Positions 29,290 to 29,392 of a DNA stretch of 41,350 bases are shown one piece after another. A program made the translations under genes and the position numbers. The stretch comes from Spirochaetaceae bacterium (GTDB taxonomy: Bacteria; Spirochaetota; Spirochaetia; Treponematales; Breznakiellaceae). Each line of letters starts with the position of its first letter. Position 1 is the stretch's first letter. The stretch is taken from positions 1 through 41,350 of the forward strand of contig JAISLT010000013.1 of NCBI GenBank assembly GCA_031277165.1, given 5' to 3'. The notes beneath the pieces were generated by a model. The model searched no databases, was not told where the DNA came from, and saw only the letters and a list, made by a program, of their open reading frames with translations.

Positions 29290-29306
29290 TTGGCACGGTT
29301 CTTGCT
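29290..29306 (+). promoter_or_regulatory. Sigma-54 promoter upstream of (CT)44 and the glycan locus
   Basis: TTGGCACGGTTCTTGCT, identical to the hsp20 site and a full match to TGGCACG-N4-TTGCW. The final CT of the element is the first unit of the dinucleotide run. The predicted start point (about 29317) lies inside that run. Confidence 0.65.
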
Positions 29307-29392
29307 CTCTCTCTCTCTCTCTCTCTCTCTCTCTCTCTCTCTCTCTCTCTCTCTCTCTCTCTCTCTCTCTCTCTCTCTCTCTTATACTCATC
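29305..29392. repeat. (CT)44 dinucleotide repeat
   Basis: An uninterrupted 88-base CT run starting at the -12 element of the sigma-54 promoter. Such runs are prone to slipped-strand change. It would lie in the transcribed leader, about 250 bases before the ABC permease gene. The frames open across it (Ser-Leu or Arg-Glu repeats) look artificial. Confidence 0.95.

Follow-up and report, generated by a model that had tools for sequence, protein, structure and literature searches.

A CT repeat abutting a sigma-54 promoter as the probable switch of a phase-variable leader ORF ahead of a spirochaetal glycan export locus

The pilus loci pil1 and pil3 of Streptococcus gallolyticus carry a repeat within a leader-peptide ORF, and ribosomes disrupt a premature terminator there in a frame-dependent manner (PMC3894217). 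The repeat unit is GCAGA, the leader possesses a ribosome-binding site, and the system concerns two pilus loci of Gram-positive cocci (PMC3894217). As far as we found, phase-variable attenuation has been demonstrated only at these two streptococcal loci, and their attenuator is the closest known mechanism for the set of loci described in this study. The next relatives are coding repeats: in the CT-repeat outer-membrane genes of Helicobacter pylori and in Neisseria opa with its CTCTT repeats, the repeat lies within the gene's own signal-peptide region. These genes share with the present loci a CT-type repeat, a Leu/Ser stretch near the 5' end and a surface expression that depends, here by prediction, on the frame, whereas the repeat of the present loci lies in a separate upstream ORF, with a direct lipoprotein fusion at L220 as the exception. 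Tandem sigma-70 and sigma-54 promoters ahead of one gene are familiar from glnA, where the sigma-70 promoter (P1) is located about 100 nt upstream of the sigma-54 promoter (P2); here, however, the sigma-54 box runs into the repeat tract and is enclosed by an ORF that looks translated. Sigma-54 has also been described as a controller of the bacterial exterior, with promoters tied to lipoprotein and exopolysaccharide genes, while the sections of that paper available to us do not mention repeats or leader ORFs (PMC3162934). Our literature search found no publications on sigma-54 in combination with simple sequence repeats, or on termite Treponema and sigma-54.

The window analysed here is a whole stretch of 41,350 nucleotides from a Spirochaetaceae bacterium (assembly GCA_031277165.1, contig JAISLT010000013.1), which we take to be a termite-gut spirochaete. 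The source assembly is a draft (2.48 Mb, 82% complete, 123 contigs), and the exact repeat number is therefore the value resolved by the assembler. The window possesses a long, pure repeat of a short unit, and the frame of an ORF shifts with the number of units; this is the hallmark of a simple-sequence contingency locus. The features around it are as follows.

29195..29223, + strand: P1, sigma-70-type promoter with an extended -10 (TTGACT, 17 nt, TACATT, with TG before the -10), from the promoter motif
29230..29472, + strand: small, probably leaderless ORF, MRQGPEKITFFYILYPKSPHLARFL(LS)n, 80 codons at n = 39, open through box and tract
29290..29305, + strand: P2, sigma-54 -24/-12 element TTGGCACGGTTCTTGC, from the consensus match and the rpoN and activator (bEBP) genes in the genome
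29305..29382, + strand: (CT)39 tract, (Leu-Ser)n in any frame, from the sequence count
29386..29392, + strand: post-tract element ACTCATC (ACTCACC/ATTCGCC family), from the motif count across loci
29479..29513, + strand: weak hairpin (5 bp, -4.6 kcal/mol) followed by a T run, possibly a degenerate terminator, from folding
29558..29560, + strand: small-ORF stop in the phase n = 37/40, from frame reading
29640..29642, + strand: small-ORF stop (TAG) in the phase n = 38/41, predicted to be coupled (ON), from frame reading
29646..30482, + strand: ABC-2 membrane permease of a polysaccharide exporter, predicted first controlled gene (PF01061)
30483..31277, + strand: ABC exporter ATPase (PF00005)
31329..41350, + strand: rest of the glycan locus, up to the contig end, from gene content

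The element at 29290-29305 matches every defined base of TTGGCACGN4TTGC, with the GG and GC dinucleotides at the correct spacing, and the exact sigma-54 box claimed in an earlier note on this DNA thus fits the consensus throughout. The search for rpoN and activators that the same note proposed found rpoN and four strong sigma-54 activator (bEBP) genes in the own genome. Its repeat count was too high: instead of (CT)44, 88 bases ending at 29392, the run comprises 78 bases or 39 units, and its first base is the last base of the box. Directly 3' of the run is TATACTCATCTTCATCT (29383-29399), and an ACTCACC/ATTCGCC-like element occurs no more than 40 nt past the tract in 43 of 130 loci, against a background of 1.8%. 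A search for known RNA families gave no Rfam match up to E = 1.

The association of box and tract is not a peculiarity of the window. The own genome contains only seven CT runs of eight or more units, six of which directly follow an exact sigma-54 box, while the seventh is at a contig start and has the same downstream element; the pairing in this genome is not due to chance. A scan of GTDB species genomes yielded at least 117 genomic stretches with box and CT run, and the matches listed belong to Treponema/Spirochaetaceae, Deltaproteobacteria, Desulfovibrio, Chitinispirillales and two magnetotactic Nitrospirota. Nearly all of these stretches come from metagenome-assembled genomes (MAGs) or genomes of termite-gut type, as read from isolate codes. 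No box with a CT run was found among the sampled Spirochaetota genomes outside the window's family. Among 118 CT runs sampled without bias from 120 genomes of this family, 98 adjoin a TGGC-N7-TG(C) box; others follow AAAGTTT-N11/12-GCCGA, which is sigma-28-like, one follows TTGACA-N17-TATC, which is sigma-70-like, and three from a single genome are preceded by an unrecognised motif. Copies within a genome have about 30-120 nt of upstream sequence in common, a stretch that includes the P1 promoter and the ORF start. The upstream flanks of paralogous copies in MS502-30 are 88-96% identical, with tracts of 10.5 to 19.5 units. The 100% identical flanks of two L047 tracts were rejected as evidence of length change, being an overlap artefact of tandem copies, and spread of box and tract by a mobile element appears unlikely, as upstream homology within a genome typically extends over 60-230 nt and the downstream genes differ.

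Several variants were seen beside the CT loci. At L219 (G000:C27) and L221 (G000:C92), which share flanks including ATGGC-TGCTTCCTCCTTTTTT, the sigma-54 box is followed by G17 and G6, respectively, rather than by CT, and the leader-ORF layout is absent at these two G-tract loci. At G008:C11:1681-1759, a G11 run is flanked by two convergent sigma-54 boxes. L220 (G000:C119) in the own genome is a CA-repeat version whose leader ORF can be read as an in-frame fusion with the signal peptide of a lipoprotein, and it is possibly an evolutionary intermediate.

Upstream of the box, an extended -10 promoter of the sigma-70 type is common to many homologous loci at a distance of 80-110 nt; in the window, with TTGACT at 29195 and TACATT at 29218, it lies about 60 nt upstream. 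In most loci an ATG follows the -10 after 6 or 7 nt, at the expected +1, with no Shine-Dalgarno sequence. The window ORF conforms to this arrangement, its ATG at 29230 sitting 6 nt past the -10 and having no Shine-Dalgarno sequence, so the message from P1 is likely to be leaderless. An upstream promoter scoring at least 9 could be recognised at 43 loci. ATGs were chosen there only by their spacing to the -10, and the frame of the P1 ATG was open through box and tract in all 43; in its two alternative frames, the same DNA was open in 14 of 86 cases. In a holdout set of 20 variant-box loci, none of which had been used before, P1-ATG ORFs were open in 6 of 6 cases. The upstream ORF is likewise present at the sigma-28-type loci. 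At many loci of Deltaproteobacteria, an ATG lies exactly 54 nt upstream of the box; their leaders are long or unclear, and they were not counted as proof of coupling. Across different loci the box is read in all three frames, which indicates that selection acts on the openness of the ORF rather than on a peptide and points to a box conserved as DNA and an ORF conserved as an open frame.

The box as a mere coding motif (LARFL) was ruled out, since its reading frame differs between loci, all three being used, and since an identical 16-mer with no tract precedes hsp20. This second copy is on the minus strand at 28875-28860 and faces an Hsp20 gene; apparently the same arrangement is found in several family members.

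All three frames of the CT tract are free of stops and encode (Leu-Ser)n, while a single unit alters the exit frame. Given that the ORF runs through the tract, the tract sets the frame in which the ORF exits. In a typical locus two frames stop soon past the tract and the third continues to the start codon of the downstream gene, in many cases across an intrinsic terminator. For the 79 loci with a credible downstream start, the sorted stops have medians of 6, 30 and 182 nt past the tract, against 19, 55.5 and 123 nt in shuffled leaders. One exit frame stops within -12 to +20 nt of the downstream start codon, often as ATGA, in 46 of these loci (mean 18.4 and maximum 26 in 200 dinucleotide shuffles). 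This coupling to the gene start is not seen in the other 33, partly because starts were guessed by a script. In the holdout, the gene start was reached in about 8 of 15 judgeable loci, six of them with an exact ATGA. Leader terminator hairpins of -14 kcal/mol or better were present in 19 of the 79 loci, against 5 of 237 shuffled leaders, and hairpins of -10 kcal/mol or better in 25 of the 79. The combination of a terminator, at least one earlier stop and one frame through to the gene was found in 20 of the 79 loci (null mean 1.25, maximum 4), including one in Chitinispirillales (L060) and one in Deltaproteobacteria (L080), the latter with no recognised upstream ORF. Loci within one genome are related, and the effective sample is smaller than these counts. 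The coupled phase occurs in just 5 of 20 classifiable alleles, which is compatible with chance.

The set thus resembles pil1 in having a repeat unit not divisible by three inside a leader ORF, in a frame that decides whether translation stops short of a terminator or passes it (the 20 loci above, which exclude the window copy), in the strong intrinsic terminators between repeat and gene and in the surface structures that are controlled, here by prediction. It differs in its CT repeat, in the leaderless-looking ORF and the ATGA overlap in many frames, in the up to 10 or more copies per genome distributed over several phyla, and in the second, alternative-sigma promoter that adjoins the tract. 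The window copy, in addition, differs from pil1 in lacking a strong terminator (hairpin -4.6 kcal/mol) and a ribosome-binding site for the leader ORF, and we therefore did not file it as a pil1-type member.

In the window, the assembled n = 39 places the stop of the small ORF early, at 29472, so that this allele is predicted to be OFF. The stop in the phase n = 38/41 lies 3 nt before the permease ATG (29646), with no overlap with that ATG. A standard terminator scan found no strong intrinsic terminator in the window leader and did not report the hairpin at 29479-29513; only coupling, or this weak 5-bp hairpin, can thus act there, coupling being the likelier route. The beginning of the permease gene (ATGGACTGG-ATTT-AC, 29646-29668) is partly duplicated 78 nt upstream, at 29568-29590, and this copy shares its frame with the leader ORF in the coupled phase.

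In the reading that we consider likely, the CT run acts as the switch in a leader ORF that is phase-variable and operates by coupling or attenuation ahead of surface genes. P1 would begin the mRNA at the ATG at 29230, and ribosomes would make a small peptide whose coding region spans the sigma-54 box and the CT run, the latter read as (Leu-Ser)n. With units presumably gained or lost by slippage, each change of one unit would shift the frame by two, and the ribosome would consequently exit the tract in one of three frames. Two of them would lead to an early stop, while the third would take the ribosome through the leader to a stop at the start codon of the next gene and turn that gene on by translational coupling; where the leader contains a hairpin terminator, read-through would also prevent termination. 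At the window locus, n = 39 would stop translation early, whereas n = 38 or 41 would couple it to the ABC polysaccharide exporter, whose expression would follow the phase. The sigma-54 box would be a second, regulated promoter within the ORF, giving messages that lack the ORF start, and a contribution of sigma-54 is possible. Less easily reconciled with this reading are the lack of a strong terminator and of a stop-start overlap in the window, the 33 loci with no coupling to the gene start, the low share of alleles in the coupled phase (5 of 20) and several exporter orthologs with no repeat in the 420 nt upstream.

Orthologs of the exporter bear on the role of the box. The closest one (G079, 87% identity) has a C18 poly-C tract in a leader ORF, of which one phase stops 13 nt past the tract, while the stops of the other two, 110 and 120 nt past the tract, are close to the gene start. 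A sigma-54 box is absent from the 420 nt upstream of this gene, so the frame logic does not require one. In G109, a more distant ortholog, a comparable ORF contains C7, while several others showed no repeat in the 420 nt upstream.

The earlier note had assigned the switch to sigma-54 itself: the promoter would drive the locus, and the repeat number would tune initiation or the 5' leader, with the start point within the tract. This is unlikely, although the box is exact, rpoN and its four activators are encoded, 98 of the 118 sampled CT runs adjoin a sigma-54-like box and others a sigma-28-like or in one case a sigma-70-like element, and copies in a genome have some 60-120 nt of upstream sequence in common. 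The -24/-12 spacing cannot depend on the repeat number, and beyond about 7 units extra units alter only the leader length. With their leader untranslated, P2 transcripts would be expected to stop at the terminators that many copies carry, and the box is missing in the ortholog whose leader contains poly-C. Moreover, the always-open ORF, the three exit frames and the ATGA overlaps would be left unexplained, and the tract is situated inside a translated-looking ORF that starts from an upstream sigma-70-type promoter. Of the phase-variable switch proposed in that note, the repeat of hypermutable type and a probable switching function are retained, whereas the leader or start-point route is not upheld as the main mechanism.

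The strict abutment of an alternative-sigma promoter on the tract is outside what a leader-ORF switch explains and raises the question of why such a promoter is welded to each repeat. One conceivable reason, which we hold to be quite improbable, is that the promoter is placed to open the tract: stress-activated initiation would melt the repeat and raise slippage, the frame logic would set the outcome, and the switching rate would be under environmental control. The -12 or -10 edge of P2 coincides with the tract start for the sigma-54, sigma-28-like and sigma-70-like types, and attenuated P2 transcripts would apparently be of no use as gene messages; however, the abutment may just mark where an expanding microsatellite met essential promoter bases. 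A broader, speculative picture, rather unlikely as a whole, is a two-layer genome-wide switch in which leader ORFs would set a heritable state of surface genes and the fused sigma-54/sigma-28 promoter would control opening or transcription of the tract, and thereby, upon a signal, how often slippage occurs or whether the phase is bypassed, with recruitment in several phyla of termite-gut bacteria. A microsatellite hotspot without selective effect, or an artefact of repeats in draft assemblies of metagenomes, is a very improbable source of tract and box. Most sources are indeed MAGs, and long CT runs are often at contig ends, but the runs occur in many genomes from different studies, also in Magnetominusculus xianensis, and always on the coding strand. 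A neutral hotspot predicts neither this nor a first gene in the same direction, the box, the open ORF or the surface genes.

The genes behind the tracts are consistent with a leader-ORF switch of the cell surface. The first downstream gene has the same direction as the tract in 69 of 75 cases. By simple motif rules, it is a predicted lipoprotein in 33 of 88 loci, against 16 of 447 neighbouring genes, and a lipoprotein or signal-peptide-bearing protein in 61 of 88, against 82 of 447. The downstream families comprise FGE-sulfatase, BspA-like LRR, TonB receptors, Ig-like domains, autotransporter and TPS domains and one DNA methylase. The last of these, at L139, is an N6/N4 DNA methylase with a restriction-type domain preceded by a CT-leader locus, a possible phasevarion. 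Tract-free sigma-54 sites in the family precede glnA, Hsp20 and rpoD-like genes, names that, except for the window Hsp20, were read from protein starts. If the leader-ORF reading holds, the set would extend phase-variable attenuation to more than 100 loci in uncultured symbionts, with lipoproteins, FGE-sulfatase and BspA-like surface proteins, TonB receptors, glycan export and a DNA methylase as the controlled cargo, and a simple sequence rule (an ATG after the -10, a frame open through the tract and one frame leading to the next ATG) would make ON and OFF states readable from metagenomes.

The glycan export locus that the earlier note placed behind the tract was recovered, with an ABC exporter and glycosyltransferases downstream; beyond the exporter, 31329..41350 encodes a nucleotidyltransferase, a PqqD-like protein, glycosyltransferases, a methyltransferase and a radical SAM protein. 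A G11 run at 37706-37716 is located near the 5' end of the methyltransferase-domain gene (ORF from about 37646), in a frame that is open as assembled, and the contig ends in a C14 run (41337-41350) inside the radical SAM gene, which is probably a third phase-variable tract that broke the assembly. With these two runs, the locus looks multiply phase-variable. Elsewhere in the window, large tandem repeats with units of 75-168 bp occur in long minus-strand ORFs at 1799-2245, 7622-7913 and 10222-10619.
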